Below are positions 1,657 to 57,350 of a stretch of DNA of 61,049 nucleotides, one piece after another (position 1 is the first letter of the stretch; each line of letters starts with the position of its first letter). The stretch spans positions 1 to 61,049 of the forward strand of contig VGXC01000021.1 in assembly GCA_016873495.1 (NCBI GenBank). The letters run 5' to 3'. Origin of the DNA: Nitrospira sp. (lineage in GTDB: Bacteria; Nitrospirota; Nitrospiria; Nitrospirales; Nitrospiraceae). The notes beneath the pieces are model-generated. The model did no database searches, was not told the origin of the DNA, and saw only the letters and a program-made list of their open reading frames with translations. A program made the translations under genes and the position numbers.

Positions 1657-3024
1657 ATGTCCGGAACGCTCCAGACAACGCAAGATTTATCGCAGTTGGC
1701 GGCGGATCTTCTCGCCCGTGCCAAGAAACGGGGCGCGACTCAGGCCGATGTGGTGGTGGCGGACGGGGACACTTTTTCGGTCCAGGTGCGGCTGTCGGCG
1801 GTGGACCGGCTGACCAAGGCCAGAGAGAAGCGACTGGGGCTTCGGGTCTTCATCGGCAAGCACTCGGCGACGGCCTCTACCTCCGATTTCTCGACGGAAT
1901 CTTTGGATCGGTTGGTGTCCGACACCTGCGCACTGGCGTCAGCGGTAGTCGCGGATGATGTCTCCGGCCTGCCGGACGCGACGGCCATGGCCAAGGACCT
2001 GCCCGACTTGGACCTCTACGACGCCATGACCTTGTCCACCGACACGCAAATCGAACTGGCGCGGCGTGCGGAAGCCTCGGCGCTGAGCATGGATCCTCGC
2101 ATCACCAACTCCGAAGGGGCAGATTTCAATTCCGCTTCGGGCCGGGTGGTCCTGGCGAATAGTCACGGGTTTCTGGGAGACTACCGGAGTTCGACGTTTT
2201 CGGTGTCCGTATCTCCCGTGGCGACCGACCCAGGCTCCGGCGGGATGCAGCGGGAATCCTGGTATGCAGTCCAGCGCAAGTACGCCAAGTTGGACAGTCC
2301 CGAATCAGTTGGGCAGGAAGCGGCGCGGCGGACCCTGCGCCGCCTCGGCGCGCGGAAGGTGCCGACCACCAAAGCGCCGGTGGTCTTCGATCAGGAGATG
2401 GCGGGGAGCCTTCTCGGCCATCTCTGCAGCGCAGCTTCGGGGTACGCACTCTACAAAGGCGCCTCGTTTTTGATCGGGCAATTGGGGCAGAAGCTGGCCC
2501 CGGACTTCGTGACCGTGTATGACGATGGCTTGATTCCGGGCGGGTTAGGATCGCGTCCCTTCGACGGTGAAGGGCTGTCAACCAGGAAAACGACAGTGAT
2601 GGATCGGGGTCGGTTGGCCAGCTACCTGCTGGACAGTTATTCCGGACGGAAGCTCGGCCTAGCCTCCACCGGAAACGCGTCCCGCGGGGTCGGGGAGAGC
2701 CCCTCCGTGGGACCCACCAATTTCTACTTGGTTCCTGGGGCAAAGTCTCCGACAGATATCATCGGATCAGTGAAGAATGGGCTCTATGTCACTGAATTAA
2801 TTGGTTTTGGAGTCAATATGGTGACTGGTGATTATTCGCGGGGAGCCGCAGGATTTTGGATTGAAAACGGGGAATTGGCCTATCCGGTTGAGGAAATCAC
2901 CATTGCCGGAAATTTGAAGCGGATGTTCGCCGATATCGAGCTGGTCGGGAGCGACCTGGAGTTCCGTAGCCGGATCGCCAGCCCCACCGTCAAGATCGGC
3001 GAAATGACGATCGCCGGCAACTAG
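1657..3024 (+). CDS. pmbA: TldE/PmbA, partner of TldD
   Basis: This is the second, non-catalytic half of the TldD/TldE heterodimeric protease. The 455-residue protein shares the TldD fold along its length but lacks a HExxxH zinc motif in the matching region, as expected for TldE. A purine-rich ribosome site (AAAAGGAAACGAGG) lies directly before the ATG. It sits 26 bp after tldD in the same direction, a common arrangement. TldD/E acts on unstructured peptides, which may matter given the RiPP-type radical SAM gene at 47.6 kb, but the two loci are far apart and no link is shown. Confidence 0.9.
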   Translation: MSGTLQTTQDLSQLAADLLARAKKRGATQADVVVADGDTFSVQVRLSAVDRLTKAREKRLGLRVFIGKHSATASTSDFSTESLDRLVSDTCALASAVVADDVSGLPDATAMAKDLPDLDLYDAMTLSTDTQIELARRAEASALSMDPRITNSEGADFNSASGRVVLANSHGFLGDYRSSTFSVSVSPVATDPGSGGMQRESWYAVQRKYAKLDSPESVGQEAARRTLRRLGARKVPTTKAPVVFDQEMAGSLLGHLCSAASGYALYKGASFLIGQLGQKLAPDFVTVYDDGLIPGGLGSRPFDGEGLSTRKTTVMDRGRLASYLLDSYSGRKLGLASTGNASRGVGESPSVGPTNFYLVPGAKSPTDIIGSVKNGLYVTELIGFGVNMVTGDYSRGAAGFWIENGELAYPVEEITIAGNLKRMFADIELVGSDLEFRSRIASPTVKIGEMTIAGN

Positions 3025-45211: not shown

Positions 45212-46021
45212 ATGGAATTTCCAGGCATCAAGTCCATGGCTACCCTGCTCCCGCCCCTGGCCAACCACCTGGCCAGCATCAAGCGACGCCTGATCGTGAT
45301 TGCGGGAACGGTCCTTACATCCTTCATCCTGACCTTTGCCTATTCAGGGAATTTGATTCAATGGTTCAAGCGTCCTTTCTCGGACGAGCTGGTGTTTTAC
45401 AGCCCCACCGAAGCCCTTTTTGCGTCCGTGAAGGTGTCGATCCTGGCCGGTATCGTACTAAGCCTGCCGGTGATCCTCTATCAATGCTGGAAGTTCATCG
45501 AGCCGGCCTTGCTCCCAAGGGAACAACGTTGGGGCATTCCCCTCTTCTGCTTGGCGGCAGGATTGTTTGCGCTGGGGATGGTCTTCTGCAACCTGGTCAT
45601 CCTGCCGCTGGTCATCCAGTTCTTCGTCAGTTTCGGCATGGATCGAGCGCTGGTCCCTCAATTGGCCGTCGGCACTTACGTCGATTTCAACGTCAAGTTT
45701 CTCCTGATCTTCGGATTCGCGTTCGAGCTGCCCTTGGTGTTGACGCTGTTGTCGCGCATCGGCGTCGTGTCGCCGGCCTTGCTCAGCCACTACCGCAAGC
45801 ATGCCATTATGGCGGCCTTGATCCTGTCGGCAGTCGTCACGCCCGACGCCACGCTGTTCACGATGCTCCTGATGGCGGTGCCTCTCATGGTCCTGTACGA
45901 GATCGGCATCTTGGGGACCCGCCTCTTCGGCCGGCGCCTACCGCAAGGAGAGCCAGGGCAGGATCGGAACGGGCCTGTCCCGGTACTGCCGACGGGCACG
46001 GCCGGCCAGAGGATGAAATGA
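45212..46021 (+). CDS. tatC: Twin-arginine translocase subunit TatC
   Basis: TatC is the signal-receptor core of the Tat system that moves folded, often cofactor-bearing proteins across the inner membrane. The 269-residue protein has six predicted helices and the conserved LLPPLANHLASIKRRL start, FYSPTEALFASVKVS, LPVILYQCWKFIEPAL and FGFAFELPLVLTLL. A shorter start at 45236 (MATLLPPL) is possible. Molybdoenzymes are typical Tat cargo, which fits the Mo genes in the window. TatA/B are not here. Its stop overlaps the start of the propeller gene. Confidence 0.94.
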   Translation: MEFPGIKSMATLLPPLANHLASIKRRLIVIAGTVLTSFILTFAYSGNLIQWFKRPFSDELVFYSPTEALFASVKVSILAGIVLSLPVILYQCWKFIEPALLPREQRWGIPLFCLAAGLFALGMVFCNLVILPLVIQFFVSFGMDRALVPQLAVGTYVDFNVKFLLIFGFAFELPLVLTLLSRIGVVSPALLSHYRKHAIMAALILSAVVTPDATLFTMLLMAVPLMVLYEIGILGTRLFGRRLPQGEPGQDRNGPVPVLPTGTAGQRMK

Positions 46022-47097
46022 TGACCACGTTCAAAGCCGCCTGGGTCTTTGTGTCTTGCGCCTTGTTCATCGGGGCGGTCCAGCCGTGTGCGGCTCAACG
46101 GTCTCCGGGCCGCCACGAAGCGCCGTTGGAGCAGGTCCCGGTTAGCCCGGCCCCCAGTATTCAAGCGTTGGCGGTGGGCAAGGATCGGGCTCTGTATGCC
46201 GGCTCGTTCGGCCAGGGGGTGTTTCGCAGTCATGACCAGGGAAAGAGCTGGGTGTCCGTGAGCGAGGGCTTGAGCGATGGGTTTATCCTGTCGTTGGCCA
46301 TCGCCGAAAATGGAAGGATCTATGTCGGCACACTCAGAGGCGGCGTGTTCCGGAGCGACAACGAGGGCAAGAGTTGGGAGGCGGTAAACGAAGGGCTCAA
46401 GCGATTGGAGGTCAAGACCTTGCTGACCGATGGCCGCGCCCTCTATGCCGGGACCGGCGACGGCGTCTACCGCCTGGGAGAAGGGGACGCCCGCTGGTCC
46501 CGCGTGACCAAGGGGTTCGACGACCTGCTCATCCACACCTTGGTGCTGGGTGCGGATCGGACTCTCTTTGCCGGCACATCCGGGAAGGGGGTGCTTCGGT
46601 TAAAGTTCAACGGGGCGGAGTGGACTCGCCTTTCCAAGGGACTGAAGGACCATGAAGGCCTGGTCGAGAACTTCATCCGTGTGCTAGCGCTGGATCGTGA
46701 GCAAGCGCTGTATGCGGGCACCTTCGACGGAGGGGTGTTTCGGAGCGTCGATAGAGGGGAGACTTGGCTTCCGATCAGCCGATCCCTTCCGAATGACTCA
46801 ATCCGAGGCATCGTGGTGATCGAACATGGGCTGGTGGTTGCGACGGGACGGGGAATATTTAAGACGGTGAGCCAAGGGCAGAAGTGGCTGCCTCTGAACA
46901 AAGGACTGACGGAGCTGTCCGTTCAAGCCCTTGTCGCGCCTGGCGGCGGGGTGCTCTATGCGGGGACGAGTGCGGGGGTGTTTCGAAGCGACGACGATGG
47001 AGAGAGCTGGGCCGGAATCAGCGAGGGGCTGGGAGCGGCGCAGGAGTCGGCGGGAAAGTCGCCATGGGATCATTTGGGAAGGAGTGGAAAACCATGA
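46018..47097 (+). CDS. Exported seven-bladed beta-propeller (YCF48/BNR-like)
   Basis: A 359-residue protein with a signal peptide (1-27) and seven tandem repeats of about 42 residues, each with LYAGTxxGGVFRSxDxGxSW, at roughly 55-340. This is the pattern of Ycf48/BNR-type propellers. Seven units would close one ring. Ycf48 helps photosystem II assembly; homologues in non-phototrophs are assembly factors or binding scaffolds. It overlaps tatC (ATGA) and the cyclophilin gene (ATGA), so all three are coupled. Confidence 0.85.
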   Translation: MMTTFKAAWVFVSCALFIGAVQPCAAQRSPGRHEAPLEQVPVSPAPSIQALAVGKDRALYAGSFGQGVFRSHDQGKSWVSVSEGLSDGFILSLAIAENGRIYVGTLRGGVFRSDNEGKSWEAVNEGLKRLEVKTLLTDGRALYAGTGDGVYRLGEGDARWSRVTKGFDDLLIHTLVLGADRTLFAGTSGKGVLRLKFNGAEWTRLSKGLKDHEGLVENFIRVLALDREQALYAGTFDGGVFRSVDRGETWLPISRSLPNDSIRGIVVIEHGLVVATGRGIFKTVSQGQKWLPLNKGLTELSVQALVAPGGGVLYAGTSAGVFRSDDDGESWAGISEGLGAAQESAGKSPWDHLGRSGKP

Positions 47098-47606
47098 TAG
47101 AGCCGAGCGAGAAGACGCGCGCGACGATTACGGTAACGATGAAAGGGGAGCGGCTGGGCGAGATCGGGCTGAAGTTTTATCCGGACGTGGCGCCGGGCCA
47201 CGTGAAAAACTTTCTCACGTTGGCCCAGGAAAAGTTTTACGACAGGACAACGTTTCACCGAGTGATCCCGGGGTTCATGATCCAGGGCGGCGATCCCAAC
47301 AGCAAGCAGCCGGACCGCTCCATGCACGGAATGGGCGGGCCTGGCCACCGGGTGAAGGCGGAGTTTAACAGCAAACCGCACAAGCGGGGCGTGTTGTCCA
47401 TGGCCAGGTCGAACGATCCGGACAGCGCCGGCTCGCAGTTTTTTATTTGCGTGGCCGACGCCAATTTTTTGGATTGGCAGTATACGGCGTTCGGCGAGGT
47501 GGTAAGCGGAATGGACCTGGCGGATAAGATCGTCGCGGTGAAACGGGATGGTCGGGACAATCCGCTCGAGCGGGTCGAGATGACCGTGACCGTGTCGGAA
47601 GCCTAA
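47094..47606 (+). CDS. Peptidyl-prolyl isomerase (cyclophilin)
   Basis: A 170-residue cyclophilin that speeds proline isomerisation during folding. Active-site pieces are FHRVIPGFMIQGGDP, the SAGSQFFICVAD strand and FLDWQYTAFGEV. There is no signal peptide, so it is cytoplasmic. I chose the ATG at 47094, with AAGGAG before it, overlapping the propeller stop by 4 bp. The radical SAM gene follows after 30 bp. Confidence 0.93.
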   Translation: MIEPSEKTRATITVTMKGERLGEIGLKFYPDVAPGHVKNFLTLAQEKFYDRTTFHRVIPGFMIQGGDPNSKQPDRSMHGMGGPGHRVKAEFNSKPHKRGVLSMARSNDPDSAGSQFFICVADANFLDWQYTAFGEVVSGMDLADKIVAVKRDGRDNPLERVEMTVTVSEA

Positions 47607-47636: not shown

Positions 47637-49496
47637 GTGAGCGACGAAATCAAAGTCGCGCTTGTGAATATGCCGTTCGGCTATTCCAAGTACCCGTCCA
47701 TCCAATTGGGGACGCTGTCGGCCTTGCTGAAGTCTCAGGGAATCGGCGTCGCCAGCCACTACCTAAACCTCCGTTTCGCCCACAAGATCGGCGTGCCGCT
47801 GTATGAGCTGCTGTGTGAGAAACGCGCGCTGCTGGGAGAATGGCTCTTTTCTCACTTGCTGTTCCGCGAGAACCCCAAGCATGCCGACTATCCCCGCACC
47901 TTCAAACCCGTCTTCGAAGAGCTGGCTCGTGAAAGCGGGCACCCCATCTCGTATTTTGAAGAGCTGGCCGCCAGAGGAGCTCCGCAGTTTCTCACCTGGG
48001 CTATGACGGCGATCGATTGGGGGCAATATCGGGTCGTCGGGTTTACCTCCACGTTCGACCAGAACGTGGCCAGCCTCTCATTGGCCAAGCTTATCAAGGA
48101 TCTCTACCCGAGCGTGAGGATCGTGTTCGGGGGAGCCAATTTCGATGGAGACATGGGGCTCGAGCATCTCCGTGCCTTTTCCTGGATCGATTACGTGGTG
48201 GTGGGGGAGGGGGAGGAGGTGTTTCCTTCCTTGGTGAAGCAGATTCTTGATGGGAACGAGACGGTAGTTCCGAACGGGGTAGCCTATCGCAGGGAGGGGC
48301 GGATTTATTTTGAGCCGAATCCGAAACTCTTTTCCGAATTTCAGCGGACGGGTCCTCCCGATTACGACGATTATTTTCGGCAGGTGGCCGAAATCGGCGG
48401 GGAGCCATCGAGAGGCCTGGACCGCATCCTGCTCTACGAAGGGTCCCGGGGTTGTTGGTGGGGTGAGAAGCATCATTGCACCTTCTGCGGCTTGAACGCC
48501 CAGAGCATGAAATTCAGGGCCAAAACTCCTGAGCAAGTGGCGCGGGAGCTGGACTACCTATCCAGCCGCTACGATTCCACCCGGTTTCGGTTGGTGGACA
48601 ACATCATCGACATGAAATATGTGGATGAGTTGTTTGGCAAGTTTGCGGCGGACCACTTGGATCTAGATGTCTTTATCGAAACCAAGAGTAATTTGCACAG
48701 GAAGCAGATCCGGACCCTGGCTCAGGGCGGGGTGAAATGCATGCAACCGGGTATCGAGAGTTTGAGCCAGGCTCAGCTCCGGGAGATGGACAAGGGCGTG
48801 AGCCCCATGCAAAACGTCCAGTGCTTGAAGTGGAGCTTGTACTACCATGTCGATATCTCCTGGAATATTCTGTTGGGCTTTCCTCAAGAGACGGATGAGG
48901 ACTACCGGAAGCAGATCGAGCTGATTCCCGCTCTGTTGCATCTGCAGCCGCCCCAGGGGGTTGGGAAGTTTTGGCTCGAGCGGTTCAGTCCCTATTTCAC
49001 CAGGCCGGAACAGTACGGCATCCGCATTACGGGACCAGGATTAGCCTACCACTATGTGTATGATCCCAAAGTGGTGGATTTGCGAAAAATCGCCTACGAC
49101 TTCGAATACGAGATCGACCACAAAGTGACTCCCGGACTCTATGAAGAGCTGACACAACTGGTCCGGGATTGGCAGCAGCGGCATGCGTCGTCGGATAAGC
49201 CCTTTCTCTACTATGCCAAGTCCTTGAGCTATGTGACGGTCTATGATGGCCGCCCGAGCGATGCGCCCTCGCGAACCCGCTATGATTGGCCGGCATCCTC
49301 TATCATCGAACTGTGCAACGAAGCTCCCAAGTCTCTGGAGCAGATCCAGGCCGCCATGGAAGAGGTGGGACGGGGGCCAGTGGCTGATCTGCACTCGTTG
49401 CAAGAAGCGTTGACTATCCTGGTCGCCAGGCGCATTCTCTACGGCGAACGCGGCAAGTACTTTACCCTCGCCCTTCCCGTCAACTCGACATTCTAG
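47637..49496 (+). CDS. B12-binding radical SAM enzyme, RiPP-maturation type
   Basis: A 619-residue cytoplasmic enzyme. Residues about 5-205 form a B12-binding-like domain (VALVNMPFGYSKYPSIQLGTL, FGGANFDGDMG, YVVVGEGEEVFPSLV). The radical SAM core has EGSRGCWWGEKHHCTFCGLN with C273, C281 and C284 for the 4Fe-4S cluster, the signature of RiPP maturation radical SAM protein 1. Residues 560-615 look like a winged-helix C-terminal domain. In known systems these enzymes C-methylate or otherwise modify a ribosomal peptide whose gene is adjacent; I see no short precursor gene next to this one. It starts with GTG, with GGGGAGAAGG before it, 30 bp after the cyclophilin. Confidence 0.87.
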   Translation: MSDEIKVALVNMPFGYSKYPSIQLGTLSALLKSQGIGVASHYLNLRFAHKIGVPLYELLCEKRALLGEWLFSHLLFRENPKHADYPRTFKPVFEELARESGHPISYFEELAARGAPQFLTWAMTAIDWGQYRVVGFTSTFDQNVASLSLAKLIKDLYPSVRIVFGGANFDGDMGLEHLRAFSWIDYVVVGEGEEVFPSLVKQILDGNETVVPNGVAYRREGRIYFEPNPKLFSEFQRTGPPDYDDYFRQVAEIGGEPSRGLDRILLYEGSRGCWWGEKHHCTFCGLNAQSMKFRAKTPEQVARELDYLSSRYDSTRFRLVDNIIDMKYVDELFGKFAADHLDLDVFIETKSNLHRKQIRTLAQGGVKCMQPGIESLSQAQLREMDKGVSPMQNVQCLKWSLYYHVDISWNILLGFPQETDEDYRKQIELIPALLHLQPPQGVGKFWLERFSPYFTRPEQYGIRITGPGLAYHYVYDPKVVDLRKIAYDFEYEIDHKVTPGLYEELTQLVRDWQQRHASSDKPFLYYAKSLSYVTVYDGRPSDAPSRTRYDWPASSIIELCNEAPKSLEQIQAAMEEVGRGPVADLHSLQEALTILVARRILYGERGKYFTLALPVNSTF

Positions 49497-49561
49497 CCTC
49501 GGCAATTCGTAGGCTTTTAGGCCTTCTTGTAGGGCCTAGGAGTCTGTGCGATCGTGCTTGC

Positions 49562-49602
49562 TGTCATGATAGTTGACATATTGACATGTGATCTGATATG
49601 TC
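49562..49602. promoter_or_regulatory. Probable operator/promoter of the mod-locus regulator
   Basis: A perfect 7-bp inverted repeat GACATAT (49575-49581) / ATATGTC (49596-49602) lies just before the regulator ATG at 49611. Two TTGACA boxes (49573-49578 and 49581-49586) overlap it. TGTCATGATA at 49562-49571 recurs at 51663-51672, before the lipoprotein gene. AT-rich compared with its surroundings. Likely autoregulatory site; untested. Confidence 0.5.
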
Positions 49603-49610
49603 GGTGCCCT

Positions 49611-50786
49611 ATGGGAAAGAACAGCAAGGCTGAGCCGATCGGAAACATTGAAAACCGCCTCCGTCGCTTGCGTACGGCCAAAGGGCTCTCACAGGGGACT
49701 TTGGCTGGGATGGCCGGGGTCACCAGGCAGGCCATCTACGCCATCGAAGGCAACCAGTACCTGCCCACGACGGCGGTGGCGCTGCGTCTGGCCGGTGCCC
49801 TCGACTGCCGGGTCGAAGATCTATTTAGCCTGATCTCCGGTGGGGAGATTGTCGAAGGGGAACTGGTCGGCTCTCTTCCTGCCCATCTGGCCCATGCCCG
49901 CGTCAAAGTGGCGAGGGTCGGGAGCCGTTTGTTGATCAGGCCTGTGGCTGGATTGGGGGAAGTATTGAACTTTACCGTCCCGGCGGACGGTCTGCTTCTC
50001 GGGGCTGCCGCTGCGTCACGCCGGACCGTGCGGGAGGGAGACCGCGTGCGAGTCAGACTCCTGCGGGATCGTCGGATCGTGGACGGAGAGATCGTTGTGG
50101 CTGGATGCGATCCGGCCATCTTCCTCGCCGGGGAGTATCTCCGCCGCCGGCAGGACCAGACTTCGGTCGTCGAATGGACCATGGGAAGTTCTGCCGCCAT
50201 AGAGGCCCTCAAGAGGGGAGAAGTGCATGTGGCCGGTCTCCATATCGTGGATCCAAAATCGGGCGAGTCCAATCTGCCTTATCTGCGACGTCATTGGAAG
50301 GGGCAGGAGGTGCAGGTCGTGACCTTTGCTTCCTGGGAACAGGGGCTGATGTTCAAGCAGGGCAATCCCAAAAGCGTCAGGGGAGTGGAGGACCTGGCGC
50401 GCAAAGATCTGGTGTTGATCAATCGGGAGGCGGGAGCCGGCGCGCGATTGTTGCTGGACCAAAAGCTGGCAGCGGCCGGTATCAAGGCCAATCAGGTTAA
50501 AGGACATGAGCGAAGCGCGGCCTCCCATCTCGAAGTGGCGCGTGTGATTGCCGAGGGGCAAGCGGATGTGGGGATGGGCGTGATGTCGGCCGCTCGCTTG
50601 TTAGGGCTGGAGTTTCTGCCTCTGCAGGAAGAACGGTACGACCTGGTCATCCCTTCGAAATATTTGACCGATCATCCGGGTCTATCCACCTTGCTTGATA
50701 CGATCGTGAGCCGCCCCTTCCGTACCGAAGTCGAGGCATTGGGTGGATATGACACGCGGGAAACCGGAAAGGTTCAGGCGTTGTGA
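49611..50786 (+). CDS. HTH regulator with periplasmic-binding-protein-like ligand domain
   Basis: A 391-residue one-component regulator. Residues about 12-70 are an XRE-type helix-turn-helix (LRRLRTAKGLSQGTLAGMAGV, RQAIYAIEGNQYLP). Residues about 160-380 are a PBP-like ligand domain (MGSSAAIEALKRGEVHVAGLHIVDP, WEQGLMFKQGNPKSVRG, LINREAGAGARLLLDQ, GQADVGMGVMSAARLLGL). This combination is common beside molybdate or tungstate genes, where the domain senses the oxyanion. I chose the ATG at 49611, after the palindrome. It heads the mod-like locus and probably controls it. Confidence 0.82.
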   Translation: MGKNSKAEPIGNIENRLRRLRTAKGLSQGTLAGMAGVTRQAIYAIEGNQYLPTTAVALRLAGALDCRVEDLFSLISGGEIVEGELVGSLPAHLAHARVKVARVGSRLLIRPVAGLGEVLNFTVPADGLLLGAAAASRRTVREGDRVRVRLLRDRRIVDGEIVVAGCDPAIFLAGEYLRRRQDQTSVVEWTMGSSAAIEALKRGEVHVAGLHIVDPKSGESNLPYLRRHWKGQEVQVVTFASWEQGLMFKQGNPKSVRGVEDLARKDLVLINREAGAGARLLLDQKLAAAGIKANQVKGHERSAASHLEVARVIAEGQADVGMGVMSAARLLGLEFLPLQEERYDLVIPSKYLTDHPGLSTLLDTIVSRPFRTEVEALGGYDTRETGKVQAL

Positions 50787-50823
50787 GGCGCGCGACATCG
50801 TGGCGCGGCGGCGAGGGAGAGCA

Positions 50824-51645
50824 ATGAGTCGATCGTGGGTTGTCTGGCTGCCGGCGGCCAGCCTGTTCGTCGTGCTGTCTCTGGGCGTTGCGGCCATGGC
50901 CGAGCCAGTCATCGAAACCTTGGTGATCGGCGCGTCGCCCAGCATGAAGGGGCCGGTTGAGGCGCTGGGCCGCGCGTTTGAGGTTCATCATCCGAACGTG
51001 AAGGTTAAAGTGTATTACGATTCCGGGCTGGACCTGAGGCGTACGATGGCCGCGGTGGGCAACGACCTCAGGTTCTTTCTCGGAAGCGGCCCTATCGATC
51101 TTGTCGCCCCGGGGGGCGACGAGCTGATCACGCGCTTAGAGGCGAAGTACTATGTCCTGCCCGGCACGACTCGTCCTTATGCGGCTGTGCCACTCGTGAT
51201 GGTCGTTCCGGTGGCGCTCGTGGAGGCACCCGCGTCGTTCGATGAACTGGGTCGGGGAAGCAAATACCGGATTGCGATCTCGGATCCGACGTTGACGGAG
51301 TTGGGTCGGCAGACCGGGGAACTCTTCAGCGCCTTGGGCATTGCCGATCACGTGCGGGCACGGCTGGATGTCGCCTCGGATGCGCGTGGCGTGCTGGATC
51401 ATCTTTTGCTGGGGCAGGCCGATGTCGGCATTCTGTTCGGTCCGGATGCCGTGCTGGAGCAGGAGCGGGTCCGAATCGTGGCCCAAGCGGATCGGGCGAA
51501 TTTCGAACCTTCCCTTCATTCAATGGCGATGCATCGCTACTGTCGAAACCGGACATTGTGCCTGGAATTCCTAGCCTTTGTGGAGTCCCCCGATATGCAG
51601 GCTATTGTGCAATCTTTGGGATACCTACCGCCGGTGAGGCCGTAA
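50824..51645 (+). CDS. Periplasmic oxyanion-binding protein (ModA/PBP type), extra copy
   Basis: A 273-residue exported binding protein with a signal peptide (about 1-27). The mature part begins TLVIGASPSMKGPVEALGRAFE and continues VKVYYDSGLDLRRTMA, VAPGGDELITRLEAKYY, VMVVPVALVEAPASFDEL, ADVGILFGPDAVLEQE: the ModA/type II binding-protein pattern. It is a second binding protein besides ModA at 54.4 kb and has no permease next to it. The start has GAGGGAGAGCA before it and the gene closely follows the regulator. Ligand may be molybdate, tungstate or another oxyanion. Confidence 0.78.
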   Translation: MSRSWVVWLPAASLFVVLSLGVAAMAEPVIETLVIGASPSMKGPVEALGRAFEVHHPNVKVKVYYDSGLDLRRTMAAVGNDLRFFLGSGPIDLVAPGGDELITRLEAKYYVLPGTTRPYAAVPLVMVVPVALVEAPASFDELGRGSKYRIAISDPTLTELGRQTGELFSALGIADHVRARLDVASDARGVLDHLLLGQADVGILFGPDAVLEQERVRIVAQADRANFEPSLHSMAMHRYCRNRTLCLEFLAFVESPDMQAIVQSLGYLPPVRP

Positions 51646-51662
51646 AAAAATTTCACCTGGGA

Positions 51663-51672
51663 TGTCATGATA
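51663..51672. promoter_or_regulatory. Shared motif TGTCATGATA before the lipoprotein gene
   Basis: Identical to 49562-49571, within an AT-rich stretch (51650-51715) containing TTGTAT and TATGGA boxes 85 bp before the gene at 51757. Possible site of the locus regulator. Confidence 0.4.
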
Positions 51673-51756
51673 CATTACTAATTACTTGTATACTTGTCTT
51701 TTAGAAATATGGAATCAGCAATCCATGATGGGCCTGGTCGTGGAAGGAGGCGCGAG

Positions 51757-52422
51757 ATGATACGAGGAAAAATAGATTGGCGCCTTTGCGCGGTGAGCGG
51801 AGCAGTCGTGGCCGGCTGCACGTTATCACTATTCGGCTGTGCGCGGCTGCCCTACACAGTTCAGACAGTCCATGAAGACCAGCGTGCGATCGTTACACTC
51901 CAACAGGAGGTCGAACCGGCCCGATACAGCCATCCGGTTCAGATCAGTCCACAGGACCTCGGTGCCATTCTCCGGTCGTTCTCGTTTCGGGAAAAGCAGA
52001 AGCTGCCGCTCCGCTGGTTTGCGGAGGAGGCTCCCCCCAAAAGAGTGTTCCGCCAAGACGAGCTTGAGGTGCTGACGCCCTATCTTGCCGAAGCGTTGCA
52101 GAAAGCGGGACCAGAAGAGCGCATCCATTTTACGGTTTTGGCCCCCGGCATGAACCCCGCGCTTGAGCGCGACACCACGGACGGCTGGATCGCCGTTCGC
52201 GGCCCCTACTTCCATCTCACGCTCGAACATTACCACGGGCAATTTTCGATTCGGAAGGAGGAGATGTGGGACCTGCGCTACCCCGCGATTCCGCCTGAGC
52301 CAGGCACCTTCCTGCTGTATTTCGAGCCGAATCGCTTTTGGAGCACCGATCCGGCGGCGAACGAGCGAGGTGTGTTGTACCGCGACTTCCTCAAGTCCGC
52401 GATTGTTCCCGGTGGCAAGTGA
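51757..52422 (+). CDS. Hypothetical lipoprotein of the oxyanion locus
   Basis: A 221-residue lipoprotein: signal with lipobox LFGC (Cys28). I do not recognise the mature domain. It has helical and beta segments (VHEDQRAIVTLQQEVEP, VQISPQDLGAILRSFSF, ISIRKEEMWDLRY-like end) and is Trp/Tyr-rich towards the C-terminus. An AAGGAGG ribosome site is 6 bp before the ATG. Its place between the binding protein and the porin suggests an outer-membrane or periplasmic helper for uptake. Confidence 0.7.
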   Translation: MIRGKIDWRLCAVSGAVVAGCTLSLFGCARLPYTVQTVHEDQRAIVTLQQEVEPARYSHPVQISPQDLGAILRSFSFREKQKLPLRWFAEEAPPKRVFRQDELEVLTPYLAEALQKAGPEERIHFTVLAPGMNPALERDTTDGWIAVRGPYFHLTLEHYHGQFSIRKEEMWDLRYPAIPPEPGTFLLYFEPNRFWSTDPAANERGVLYRDFLKSAIVPGGK

Positions 52423-52475
52423 CTCACACCTGAGCGGACAAGACCATTTATTGGCATGCATGTATGGAGGCGGCC

Positions 52476-54248
52476 ATGAACCGATGGCCTCAGTTGATCG
52501 GCGCAGCACAGACCAAGGCTTGGCTGATAGGGATGTTCATTCTGACCGCCGTGGCGGTCGGCCGGTTGGCCGATCCCTTAGATGCTTTGGCTGTGGATTC
52601 GGGACGGTTAATCGAGAAGGACGGCCAGTACGTCTTCGTCGAAAGCCAGGATCCCTCTTTGCAGCTGTTGATGGATCGGGCCTTTGAGAAGGGGATCATC
52701 ACCAAGGACGAGTACGAGCAGGCCCTCAAGGAATCAGAGGCCCATCGGTACCAGACCCAAATTCCCTTCAAGCTTTGGTACGATCGGGGCTTCAATATCT
52801 CCACGAACGACAATGCATTCTTCCTCAAAATTCGAGGCCGAGCCATGTTTCGGGAAACGACGCGATTCCGAAACGATGCCTGGAGAAACCCTGGCGATGC
52901 CAAGAATTTCCCCGAGCTCCTTGGGGTGTTCGGCGATTACCGCGCGAACCGCTCGACGAATGACGCTAGCTATTTTAATCTTCGGCGCGCGCGCCTGTTG
53001 TTTTCGGGTCACGTCTTCAATCCCGATTTCAAGTATTTTGTCCAAATGGGGTTTGAGTCGGCGGAGAACGCTCAGACCCCCGGCGCGGCCAACCTGCTCG
53101 ACTTCTACGTGACCAGCACCCACTTCTCGCTGTTCAACGTGCAGGTCGGCCAGTACAAGGTCTATTTCAACCGGTCGCAGATTAACAACACGGCCTCCAT
53201 GCAATTCGCGGAGCGGGCGCCGGTCCAGGACGCCTTTACCGCCAGCGGGTTGAATCGCCGGGACATCGGTATCACGATCATGAACGACGACGAACTGTAC
53301 CCGGTGAACTATTACCTCGGTATCTTCAACGGCAGCGGCCCGCTCTTCACCCGCTACGGGGCCTATGAAAGCGAACAGCCAACGGCCAACTGCCCGGGTG
53401 GGCAAACCAGCGGCAATCCGGTTCCATCGCCTGCAAGTTGTCCCACGTCCCAGCGGAACCTGAACGCGAACCTGCGGACTCAAATCAATCAATTGATGTA
53501 TACGGCGCGCTTCAATTGGAACGTCATGGGACGACCTGGGTATGGCGAGGGGGATCTGGCCTATTCGGAAACGCCGCAATGGGCGATGGGCGGTAACATC
53601 GCCTACAACCCTGGGATCAATACAAGCAGCAACAACGCATTCATTGGTATCGACCTGGCCAATCTCAACTGGCGCCGGTCACTCGCCACATTTGGGAACG
53701 GCCGACAACTCGGATGGGGTATCGTGGACTATACGACGTGGGGATTGGACACCATCTTCAAGTACCGAGGCTTCTCGATCCAGGGCGAGTACTACTTCAA
53801 AAACATCACCCGCCATGAGAAAGGCTTGCCCTGCATGCAGCGCGTGTCGGCCGGCGCAGCCTGCACGACCTATGCCCCATCGCTGATGGGGAATGCGAGC
53901 GGATTTTATGTCCAGTCCGGCTATTATCTCATACCCCGCTATCTCGAATTCGCCGCGCGCTATTCCTATTGGGACCCGGATTCCAGCGTCGGCGGCGACC
54001 TGATCAAACAAGTGGATGCGTCCGTCAATTATTTCCCGTTCGGGGTCTACGACTATCAAGTCATGTTGACCTATTCAAACCAGGCGATGGGGACCGGCGG
54101 CTATGCGATCGGGCGTAGCGCGCCCCTGCCCGCCGTCGGGCCGTTGAATAGCGCGTCATCCTATCCTTCGGGCACGGTGCCCTTGGATGCGAGGGGGGGA
54201 ACGTTGATCGACAACACGATCCGCCTGCAGTTGCAGATTTTCTTCTGA
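52476..54248 (+). CDS. Phosphate-selective-type porin (OprO/OprP family)
   Basis: A 590-residue outer-membrane porin. After a signal peptide (about 1-40) comes a short helical segment (SLQLLMDRAFEKGIITKDEYEQAL) and a long beta-barrel with amphipathic strands (FFLKIRGRAMFRETTRF, SYFNLRRARLLFSGHVFNPDFKYFVQMGF, FNVQVGQYKVYF). It ends in Phe (LQLQIFF), the outer-membrane insertion signal. OprO/P porins pass phosphate and other oxyanions, so it may serve this molybdate-type locus. I chose the ATG at 52476, with GGAGG upstream. Confidence 0.85.
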   Translation: MNRWPQLIGAAQTKAWLIGMFILTAVAVGRLADPLDALAVDSGRLIEKDGQYVFVESQDPSLQLLMDRAFEKGIITKDEYEQALKESEAHRYQTQIPFKLWYDRGFNISTNDNAFFLKIRGRAMFRETTRFRNDAWRNPGDAKNFPELLGVFGDYRANRSTNDASYFNLRRARLLFSGHVFNPDFKYFVQMGFESAENAQTPGAANLLDFYVTSTHFSLFNVQVGQYKVYFNRSQINNTASMQFAERAPVQDAFTASGLNRRDIGITIMNDDELYPVNYYLGIFNGSGPLFTRYGAYESEQPTANCPGGQTSGNPVPSPASCPTSQRNLNANLRTQINQLMYTARFNWNVMGRPGYGEGDLAYSETPQWAMGGNIAYNPGINTSSNNAFIGIDLANLNWRRSLATFGNGRQLGWGIVDYTTWGLDTIFKYRGFSIQGEYYFKNITRHEKGLPCMQRVSAGAACTTYAPSLMGNASGFYVQSGYYLIPRYLEFAARYSYWDPDSSVGGDLIKQVDASVNYFPFGVYDYQVMLTYSNQAMGTGGYAIGRSAPLPAVGPLNSASSYPSGTVPLDARGGTLIDNTIRLQLQIFF

Positions 54249-54258
54249 GGCGTAGCCT

Positions 54259-54287
54259 TGCGCGGCGAGCGGCCGGCCAGTATAGTG
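54259..54287 (+). promoter_or_regulatory. Putative modA promoter
   Basis: TTGCGC (54259-54264), 17-bp spacer and TATAGT (54282-54287), 79 bp before modA. No E. coli-type ModE box was seen. Confidence 0.5.
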
Positions 54288-54365
54288 GCGGTGGTTCGGG
54301 TCGGTACACGACGAGGCATCCGGTCGAATACCGTGGCCTGAGGAAAGTCGATACGTGGAGGAACG

Positions 54366-55172
54366 ATGATGATCGTTAGAAAAGCGGCGCCCATTCTGCT
54401 CGTTACATGGGTTGTCGTGGCGGTCGGAATGATGGTTCTGGGAATGGGAGGACTGGCATCGGCCTCAGGCGAGGAGTTGACGATTGCCGCTGCGTCGGAC
54501 TTGAATTTCGCGTTTAAGAAGATCGTCTCTGACTTTGAGGCATCGACGGGCACCCATGTGCGGCTTTCCTTTGGGTCGTCAGGCAATTTCTTCTCTCAGA
54601 TTCAGCATGGGGCTCCGTACGATCTCTATTTCTCGGCGGATATTCGCTACCCCCAGAAGCTGGAACAAACCGGCCATGCGGTGCCCGGCTCCCTATACAA
54701 GTATGCCGTCGGGCGGATCGTGGTCTGGACACCCAAATCGTCTCCGGTGTCGGTTGGAAAACTGGGCATGGATGCCTTGTTGGCCCCGTCCATTCAAAAG
54801 ATCGCCATTGCCAACCCCAAGCATGCTCCGTACGGGCGAGCAGCGATTTCCTCGATGGAGCATTTCAAGATTTTCGACCGCGTCAAGGATAAGCTTGTAT
54901 TGGGCGAGAACATCTCCCAGGCCGCCCAGTTCGTCGAATCCGGCGCGGCCGATATCGGAATCATCGCCCTGTCGTTGGCGTTGGCGCCGGCGATGAACGA
55001 AGCAGGCCAGTATTGGGAAATTCCTACTGCGGCTCACCCTGCGCTGGAGCAGGGTGCGGTTATTGTAGCGGGCACTAAACATCAACAGGCGGCCAAGGCC
55101 TTCTTGGACTTTTTGCGGGGGCCGGAGGGCCGGCAGGTCATGGCCGGCTACGGGTTTGTGTTGACCGAGTAA
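54366..55172 (+). CDS. modA: Molybdate ABC transporter binding protein ModA
   Basis: The periplasmic receptor that hands molybdate or tungstate to ModB/ModC. The 268-residue protein has a signal peptide (about 1-35) and ModA signatures: LTIAAASDLNFAFKKIVSDFE, VRLSFGSSGNFFSQIQHGAPYDLYFSADI, IAIANPKHAPYGRAA, ADIGIIALSLAL. Ser/Ala positions in AAASD and GSSG are the expected oxyanion contacts. A small lipoprotein gene separates it from modB. Confidence 0.93.
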   Translation: MMIVRKAAPILLVTWVVVAVGMMVLGMGGLASASGEELTIAAASDLNFAFKKIVSDFEASTGTHVRLSFGSSGNFFSQIQHGAPYDLYFSADIRYPQKLEQTGHAVPGSLYKYAVGRIVVWTPKSSPVSVGKLGMDALLAPSIQKIAIANPKHAPYGRAAISSMEHFKIFDRVKDKLVLGENISQAAQFVESGAADIGIIALSLALAPAMNEAGQYWEIPTAAHPALEQGAVIVAGTKHQQAAKAFLDFLRGPEGRQVMAGYGFVLTE

Positions 55173-55190
55173 CTCCGGACGGGATCTATC

Positions 55191-55529
55191 GTGCGCTTAT
55201 CAGGGTCTCCCCTTGGTTCTCCTCGTTGGTTCCACATAGCCGGGCTGCTGTTGTTGGCTGCCTTGGCCGGCTGCGCAGAGGGAGCCCGGTTTGTGCGTGT
55301 GGATGAACAGGGAGGCTTGGTGGTTTTTCCGCTCAAGAAGGACAGGGAGAGCGTGTACGCCTCGCCGTTTCGCGCGGAAGCCTTGAAGATGATCGAACAG
55401 CATTGTCACGGAGCCTATTTGATCACGAAAGACGGGGAGACGAAATCGGAGATGCGCACGACGGGGCTTGATGCGGATGAGCCGTTGACGACCAAGCGGT
55501 TCTGGGGGCTTCAATTTCGGTGCAAATGA
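55191..55529 (+). CDS. Small lipoprotein between modA and modB
   Basis: A 112-residue lipoprotein with lipobox ALAGC (Cys28). The mature part has FVRVDEQGGLVVFPL, ALKMIEQHCHGAYLITKDGE and WGLQFRCK, with two or three Cys. The pattern recalls small outer-membrane lipoproteins of unknown role (DUF4156-like is possible). It sits inside the mod operon, 18 bp after modA and 49 bp before modB. Confidence 0.68.
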   Translation: MRLSGSPLGSPRWFHIAGLLLLAALAGCAEGARFVRVDEQGGLVVFPLKKDRESVYASPFRAEALKMIEQHCHGAYLITKDGETKSEMRTTGLDADEPLTTKRFWGLQFRCK

Positions 55530-55578
55530 CGAATCGTGTCACACTATTGAGGGGCGCGATGATGAGAAGCTGGCCGCT

Positions 55579-56253
55579 GTGAACTGGACGGCGATCCTGG
55601 TCACCCTGAAGCTGGCGACTCTCACCGCGTTGATTCTGGTCCTGATCGGCCTACCCTTGGCCTATTGGCTGGCCTTCTCCCGATGGCGGTGGAAGTTCCT
55701 GGTCGAGTCGGTGGTGGCGCTTCCGCTGGTGCTGCCGCCGACTGTCCTGGGGTTCTACATTCTCGTCGCCATTGGGCCGCATAGCCCGTTGGGGCAGTTC
55801 TATATTGATCTCGTCGGCCATCCGTTGCCTTTTACATTCGAAGGCCTGCTCCTGGCCTCTGTCCTTTACAGCCTTCCGTTTGCCGTCCAGCCGTTTGCCG
55901 CGGCCTTCGAACAAGTGGATCGCCGTCTGATCGAGGCCTCCTGGACCTTGGGCGTTTCCCGCCCGATGACCTTTTTTAAGCTGATCGTTCCCTTTTCCGC
56001 TGCAGGCATCATTACCGGGGCAGTGTTGAGTTTCGCCCATACCCTCGGCGAATTTGGGGTGGTCCTGATGGTGGGCGGCAACATTGAAGGTGTGACGCGG
56101 ACGGTCTCGATCGATATCTACGACGAAGTCCAGGCGCTCAACTATGCGGGAGCTGCTAAGACTGCGTTGTTTCTTCTGATCGTGTCCTATACGGTCCTGT
56201 TGGCTGTCTATGCGATAAACCGGAAGGTCTGGGCCATATGGCCGCAGAAGTAA
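55579..56253 (+). CDS. modB: Molybdate ABC transporter permease ModB
   Basis: A 224-residue permease with five to six helices. The binding-protein-dependent transport motif with the EAA loop is seen in RLIEASWTLGVSRPMTFFKLIVP, followed by FAHTLGEFGVVLMVGGN, typical of ModB. It starts with GTG. It overlaps modC by 16 bp, so translation is coupled. Confidence 0.93.
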   Translation: MNWTAILVTLKLATLTALILVLIGLPLAYWLAFSRWRWKFLVESVVALPLVLPPTVLGFYILVAIGPHSPLGQFYIDLVGHPLPFTFEGLLLASVLYSLPFAVQPFAAAFEQVDRRLIEASWTLGVSRPMTFFKLIVPFSAAGIITGAVLSFAHTLGEFGVVLMVGGNIEGVTRTVSIDIYDEVQALNYAGAAKTALFLLIVSYTVLLAVYAINRKVWAIWPQK

Positions 56254-57350
56254 GCGTCGACATCACCAAGAATTTCCCCGATCGCGTGACGGTCCGTGCG
56301 TCCTTTCGCATGGACCTAGAGCCGCCCTCAGTCCTGGTGCTCTTCGGGCCGTCCGGTTCCGGAAAGACCACGGTGTTGCGCTGTCTGGCCGGGCTCGAAT
56401 GGCCGGATCAGGGGAGCATCCGATTCGGCTCGGAAATCTGGGTCGAGACTGGCGCCTGCATCCGACGGCATCCCCAACAGCGCCAGATTGGGTACATGTC
56501 TCAGGACTATGCCTTGTTCCCAACCTATTCTGTCGCCGGCAATATCGCCTACGGATTGGGAACCTTGCCGGAAGCCGAACGACAACAACGGATCCGAGAG
56601 GTTGTGGAGTTGCTCCAGTTGCAGGGGACGGAAGCATCACGGCCGGCCGAATTGTCCGGGGGGCAGCAGCAGCGGGTCGCCTTGGCCCGTGTCCTTGCGC
56701 GTCGCCCTAGGCTCTTGCTGCTCGATGAACCACTGTCTGCGCTCGACCTGCCGACCCGCTCCAGACTGCGCGGCGAGTTGCGATCGTTGCTGAAACAATT
56801 GGCCATTCCCTCCATTGTGGTGACGCACGATTGGGAAGAAGCCCTGGCATTGGGCGATCGGATGGTGGTCCTTCGAGAGGGGCTGGTGTTGCAGGAGGGA
56901 ACGCCGCAGCAGGTATTTAATCGTCCCCAGGATGCGGAGGTGGCCAAGATCGTCGGCATGGAAACGGTCATGCCGGGTCGGGTCATCGAGGTAGCGCACG
57001 GGCTGGTCACGGTGGAGGTCGAACAGCGACGGCTCGTGGCGGTCGGCGGCGACGGCATTGGGGCCGAGGTCTTTGTCTGCATCCGCGCCGAAGATGTCCT
57101 CTTGGAGGCGGCCTCGACCGGCACGACAAGCGCAAGGAATCAGCTGACCGGAACCGTGCGCGAGGTTATTCCGATGGGTGCGCTCGTTCGAGTGGAGATC
57201 GACTGCGGGTTTGTGCTGTCCGCCATTGTGACGCGCTCCGCTCTGGAAGAGCTGCGCCTCTCGACCGGGGCATTCGTCGTGGCCGCGATCAAGGCCGGCG
57301 CCGTTCATCTGGTGCCGCGTCGTGCCGGGGCTGGATCGTTCAGCGCATGA
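56238..57350 (+). CDS. modC: Molybdate ABC transporter ATPase ModC
   Basis: A 370-residue ATPase that drives molybdate import. Walker A GPSGSGKTT (37-45), Q-loop MSQDYALFP, signature LSGGQQQRVALARVLA, Walker B LLLLDEPLSALD and the switch THDWEEAL. Residues about 240-365 form a C-terminal TOBE/Mop-type region (MPGRVIEVAHGLVTVEVEQRRL, LTGTVREVIPMGALVRVEIDCG) that may sense molybdate. Its end overlaps the convergent gene by 11 bp. Confidence 0.93.
   Translation: MAAEVSVDITKNFPDRVTVRASFRMDLEPPSVLVLFGPSGSGKTTVLRCLAGLEWPDQGSIRFGSEIWVETGACIRRHPQQRQIGYMSQDYALFPTYSVAGNIAYGLGTLPEAERQQRIREVVELLQLQGTEASRPAELSGGQQQRVALARVLARRPRLLLLDEPLSALDLPTRSRLRGELRSLLKQLAIPSIVVTHDWEEALALGDRMVVLREGLVLQEGTPQQVFNRPQDAEVAKIVGMETVMPGRVIEVAHGLVTVEVEQRRLVAVGGDGIGAEVFVCIRAEDVLLEAASTGTTSARNQLTGTVREVIPMGALVRVEIDCGFVLSAIVTRSALEELRLSTGAFVVAAIKAGAVHLVPRRAGAGSFSA

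Follow-up and report, generated by a model that had tools for sequence, protein, structure and literature searches.

A 619-aa predicted B12-dependent radical SAM C-methyltransferase (rSAM) is encoded at positions 47637-49496 (+ strand; GTG start, open frame) of the 61,049-nucleotide stretch of Nitrospira sp. DNA analysed here, referred to as the window. We found that the orphan state of this gene is old and extends across most members of one order of the Nitrospirota, the phylum to which the nitrite-oxidising Nitrospira belong, and that its inheritance is mostly vertical. The gene is intact and, by phylogeny, of RiPP ancestry, carries its catalytic motif, is present throughout the order under purifying selection and has no linked partner. 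A lone, inherited and strongly conserved gene without a peptide gene has probably been adopted for another job in the cell; our best explanation, to which we assign a probability of about one half, is that a RiPP C-methyltransferase of the PoyC/pheganomycin kind was domesticated as a stand-alone gene and acts on an unlinked polypeptide.

Family assignment and domain organization

The protein matches TIGR03975 over its full length (residues 7-613 against profile positions 1-606 of 606; 615 bits against a cut-off of 281.85, E 1.3e-184), a family whose usual role is the methylation of antibiotic-like peptides. The segment SRGCWWGEKHHCTFCGLN at residues 270-287 contains a Cx7Cx2C cluster-binding motif, recognized by sequence (C273, C281 and C284; 48453-48488, + strand), and these three cysteines are invariant within the Nitrospirota clade and in 82 other aligned TIGR03975 members. 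Profile score and motif together bear out the assignment to the B12 radical SAM family of RiPP maturation made in the sequence-only reading. The spacing of the cysteines is unusual and has been reported for PoyC (PMC11285071), which Cβ-methylates valine (PMC11285071, PMC5682303).

Residues 130-199 (48024-48233, + strand) match the B12-binding domain PF02310 with 30.4 bits (E 3.9e-7), slightly below the gathering score of 32.1, and the nearest folds are those of B12 enzymes. The radical SAM core at residues 270-429 (48444-48923, + strand) matches PF04055 with 47.3 bits and has a fold like that of TokK and TsrM. TokK is the nearest solved structure by sequence (E 2.8e-10), and the nearest solved folds belong to the class B enzymes TokK, TsrM, OxsB and CysS, the full-length structure model being of moderate quality (pLDDT 66). 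About ten more distant radical SAM proteins are encoded on other contigs of the same genome (C22, C8, C23, C54, C76, C68, C49, C9 and C46), and several of them match across the B12-plus-radical-SAM region.

The C-terminal domain

Residues 500-619, modelled alone, reached a pLDDT of 92 and are predicted to form a helix, three strands, three helices and a wing. Within this region, residues 520-613 (49194-49475, + strand) model as a β3-α3 winged helix like that of a RiPP recognition element (RRE), in which the putative leader helix is poorly conserved. The β3-α3 order is required of an RRE (PMC12710340), and the RREs of proteusins have been reported as C-terminal fusions (PMC7470986). Superposition on the TbiB1-leader complex gave Z-scores of 8.7-8.8 over ~80 residues (VIA-align), with which DNA-binding winged helices tie. 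Foldseek returned winged helices, none with E < 0.001 and no RRE among the 50 matches listed, and the sequence of the domain found no credible match among solved structures. PqqD is the commonest Pfam match in the C-terminal domains of the protein family (six of the 30 members scanned), but it matched neither the domain of the window's enzyme nor any further Nitrospirota domain in the scan.

The leader groove of an RRE is formed by β3 and α3. Conservation within the Nitrospirota clade is 0.86-0.92 for β1, β2 and the wing, 0.54 for α2 and 0.42 for α3. The mean identity across α2-α3 is 0.30-0.35 in Nitrospirota pairs with a core identity of 0.75-0.85, against 0.51-0.90 in RiPP-type pairs; this comparison, a thin one with four RiPP-type pairs, hints that leader recognition may have been relaxed. 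Since the RRE-like domain has been kept, a dedicated leader peptide would fit as well.

Neighbourhood and probable ancestral site

Upstream of the rSAM lie tatC (45212-46021), a propeller gene (46021-47097) and a cyclophilin gene (47094-47606), the last separated from it by 30 bp. Downstream, the next ORF could begin as early as 49554, which leaves a gap of 57 bp, or of about 110 bp if a later ATG is used, and the neighbours on this side are an HTH-PBP regulator, solute-binding proteins and a porin. The ORFs around the gene thus confirm both the three neighbours named in the sequence-only reading and its statement that no short precursor lies in the 30 bp before or the ~110 bp after the gene: neither gap holds a precursor-sized gene, and no exporter, protease or second maturase adjoins the rSAM in the window. 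The same reading had brought in TldD and TldE. By sequence reading, candidate ORFs whose length and N-terminus suit these proteins are indeed present (tldD, 137-1630; tldE/pmbA, 1657-3024), but the proposed link to the rSAM found no support beyond a shared window, at a distance of ~45 kb.

Directly 3' of the rSAM, a putative molybdate region (49554-57350) comprises an HTH+PBP-like regulator, two ModA-like binding proteins, a lipoprotein and a porin, followed by a ModB-like permease and a ModC-like ATPase, these two assigned by inspection of their sequences. The first part of this gene order is retained at three other loci (L039, L059 and L060).

In most sampled genera, the rSAM follows a pterin-4a-carbinolamine dehydratase gene and precedes genes for a CMD protein, c6, IMPase and LpxC, most of which run in the opposite direction. 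A second family of the order shares this dehydratase-rSAM pair, and the ancestral locus was therefore probably the dehydratase gene followed by the rSAM. In the window's genome, the dehydratase-CMD site (contig C28) is without the rSAM, which stands instead behind the cyclophilin gene; genera g20 and g22 share its downstream context, g2/g21 represent a third context, and no ORF is common to all three settings. The comparison of the neighbourhoods of close homologues, proposed earlier as a check, accordingly revealed no constant partner and no precursor beside the orthologues.

Search for a precursor

A leader-family search of the window's genome detected no NHLP, Nif11 or Frankia-type leaders, and the Os1348 leader model gave only noise there (two matches at E 0.47-0.6, far below the cut-off); the genome-wide leader search that had been suggested thus did not recover the known leaders. 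Across the taxonomic family, NHLP matched weakly in nine of 172 genomes and never over the cut-off, and four of these nine (G104, G105, G106 and G116) have no TIGR03975 protein over its cut-off; Nif11 matched in 0 of the 172. On these counts, an NHLP precursor encoded elsewhere was rejected. No precursor was found beside the rSAM orthologues in the sampled genera or in the second family. The idea that a precursor was deleted at this locus is refuted, because orthologues across the order likewise stand without one and the known leaders are missing or fail to follow its distribution. A search for a PGM1-like ligase, run without a positive control, gave no match in four genomes.

A small conserved protein, c6, is encoded near the ancestral site in both Nitrospirota families (L040, 3406-3675 from the rSAM start; L153; L120, 8619-8879). 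It is 86-94 aa long, 89 aa in the ORF considered as a precursor; its C-terminal half is strongly conserved, and it has no Pfam or NCBIfam match. As a precursor it was rejected, being retained and similarly conserved in genomes without the rSAM, and lying on the opposite strand.

Distribution and selection

Of 175 genomes of the window's taxonomic family, 144 encode a TIGR03975 protein scoring above the cut-off, and the sampled loci show that most of these proteins are one orthologue, 61-92% identical to that of the window. Separate TIGR03975 proteins, only 31-37% identical, occur in other settings in a few genomes of the same family (L053, L055, L056, L066 and L067); by sequence reading, the one in L055 lies next to a subtilase-like protein and another B12 radical SAM protein, and the one in L067 adjoins three further radical SAM proteins. 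In the second family of the order, which would be the Nitrospirales, 14 genomes are listed with the rSAM and at least two are without it. One orthologue of this second family (L132, in G281) contains an in-frame TGA and matches over a shorter length; it is a decaying copy or an assembly error. Beyond both families, all matches at E 1e-60 came from three genomes in more remote Nitrospirota families and are RiPP-type members.

The pairwise dN/dS between close orthologues is 0.06-0.11, and with an intact frame and order-wide presence this argues that the orphan state is not local decay. At least two g16 lineages lack the rSAM but keep its flanking genes, and one genome of g14 and two of the second family lack it as well; having been lost in several lineages, the gene is not essential.

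Phylogeny

With the best 80 among the matches listed as outgroups, the Nitrospirota orthologues form one clade with a support of 100/100 and a stem of 1.07 changes/site, and the named public relatives inside it, among the matches listed, are Nitrospirota. The sister clade (98/92) includes several enzymes whose loci bear different RiPP precursors: an NHLP precursor just upstream in L220 (75.5 bits), a Nif11 precursor just upstream in L214 (46.5 bits), a peptide similar to the latter in L227, and an annotated pheganomycin-family precursor adjoining the Streptomyces globosus enzyme. Loci L217 and L230 have small candidate peptides with no family match over the cut-off, and a simple ORF screen found no precursor beside the rSAM in L229, L235, L238 and L243. 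Because the sister clade carries several types of RiPP precursor, the ancestor of the Nitrospirota rSAM was very probably a RiPP enzyme, whose Nitrospirota line would have lost or left its cluster.

Within the clade, the root places g2/g21 outside the second family; this position may be a long-stem artefact or the result of a transfer. At thirteen positions the clade is nearly invariant and the majority residue of other members differs; such a pattern fits a changed function and is also, to some degree, expected on a long stem.

Proposed role and alternative explanations

We propose that a class B rSAM left a RiPP cluster in the ancestor of the Nitrospirota order and would afterwards have been a stand-alone, mostly vertically inherited gene. 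Judging from its family, the [4Fe-4S] cluster on the Cx7Cx2C motif would cleave SAM to a 5'-deoxyadenosyl radical, which would take a hydrogen atom from an unactivated sp3 carbon, probably the Cβ of an aliphatic residue; methylcobalamin would donate the methyl group and a second SAM would reload it. The substrate would most likely be a conserved peptide or protein whose gene lies at another chromosomal site. We infer methylation by the rSAM, a polypeptide target, and a resident target rather than a secreted RiPP; a retained C-terminal domain of putative polypeptide-binding type (RRE-like fold, modelled) is in keeping with this reading. More tentatively, and at somewhat less than even odds, the target may be a resident housekeeping protein methylated across the order, so that the core proteome, possibly that of nitrite oxidisers, would hold a hidden C-methylated residue.

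The main rival to domestication holds that the enzyme still serves a RiPP, whose precursor would be cryptic, short, unlike known leaders and encoded away from the rSAM. The precursors of the sister clade are of several unrelated types, one of them a 37-residue pheganomycin-type peptide that would escape the leader models, and since precursors there can be leaderless or unusual, a RiPP could well be made without any known leader; the RRE-like C-terminal domain is consistent with one as well. However, no precursor is adjacent in any sampled genus or in the second family, the family-wide NHLP and Nif11 counts do not follow the enzyme, the window shows no exporter, protease or second maturase beside the gene, and the putative leader helix is poorly conserved, so that we consider a cryptic precursor less likely than domestication, if still a serious competitor. 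A small-molecule substrate, for example a pterin or another cofactor, is possible given that the ancestral neighbour in two families is a pterin enzyme; the rSAM of the window's genus adjoins a molybdate-uptake region, and TokK, CysS and OxsB, which act on small molecules or carrier-bound ones, share the fold. Yet genomes that lost or moved the rSAM retain the dehydratase by itself, for which reason the dehydratase was rejected as an obligate partner, and the characterised relatives in the branch all act on peptides (PMC5682303). A polypeptide therefore fits better, and we regard a small molecule as the less likely substrate, at quite long odds.

Two further explanations are largely excluded. 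Action on a window neighbour (cyclophilin, propeller or the tatC product) or dependence on TldD/TldE has adjacency in its favour, but other genera retain the rSAM at 61-74% identity in different neighbourhoods. The gene moreover changed place alone and left its old site empty, which argues that the neighbours are not the substrate; the suggestion of a neighbouring target was consequently rejected by synteny across genera and is highly improbable. The absence of partner genes and the clean losses in some lineages could speak for a stranded, decaying fragment of a RiPP cluster, but the intact frame, the invariant motifs, the low dN/dS and the order-wide presence all but refute it.

Significance and comparison with known systems

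TIGR03975 serves as a marker for RiPP clusters, and in the Nitrospirota order this marker is a vertically inherited stand-alone gene. After manual inspection, a sponge-metagenome study set aside clusters called by the TIGR03975 rule, judging them likely false positives (PMC9426513), and another study read a TIGR03975-bearing cluster as RiPP maturation (PMC12350317). No published description of the Nitrospirota gene was found in the literature searched, and one may exist. Activity of the enzyme would imply an unrecorded carbon-methylation in the order; if the domestication is true, it would provide a route from an antibiotic-tailoring enzyme to a resident one.

The Nitrospirota rSAM resembles PoyC and PoyB in the Cx7Cx2C motif and the B12-plus-radical-SAM architecture of a family of peptide C-methylation (PMC11285071, PMC5682303), PoyC being compared by its reported motif, outside the alignment. 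However, these enzymes cluster with an NHLP precursor, which the Nitrospirota gene lacks. The best match in plasmid records is Streptomyces globosus WP_114059372.1 of the sister clade (41.5% identity over 99%), which lies in an annotated pheganomycin-type cluster on a plasmid (L248, 5137-13460); there a pheganomycin-family precursor, a PGM1-related ligase and DpgA-C adjoin the enzyme, and all of these are absent at the Nitrospirota loci. The rSAMs of the NHLP and Nif11 clusters (L220, L214 and L227), placed in the sister clade by the tree, also differ from the Nitrospirota gene in having a precursor just upstream. The methyl-coenzyme M reductase (MCR) C-methyltransferases, Mmp10 and TIGR04014 (MCR glutamine C-methyltransferase), are not of the same family, and the window's enzyme matches TIGR04014 weakly (45.7 bits against a cut-off of 360); as an analogy for the working rather than a sign of kinship, they offer precedents for radical SAM enzymes that methylate a resident protein.
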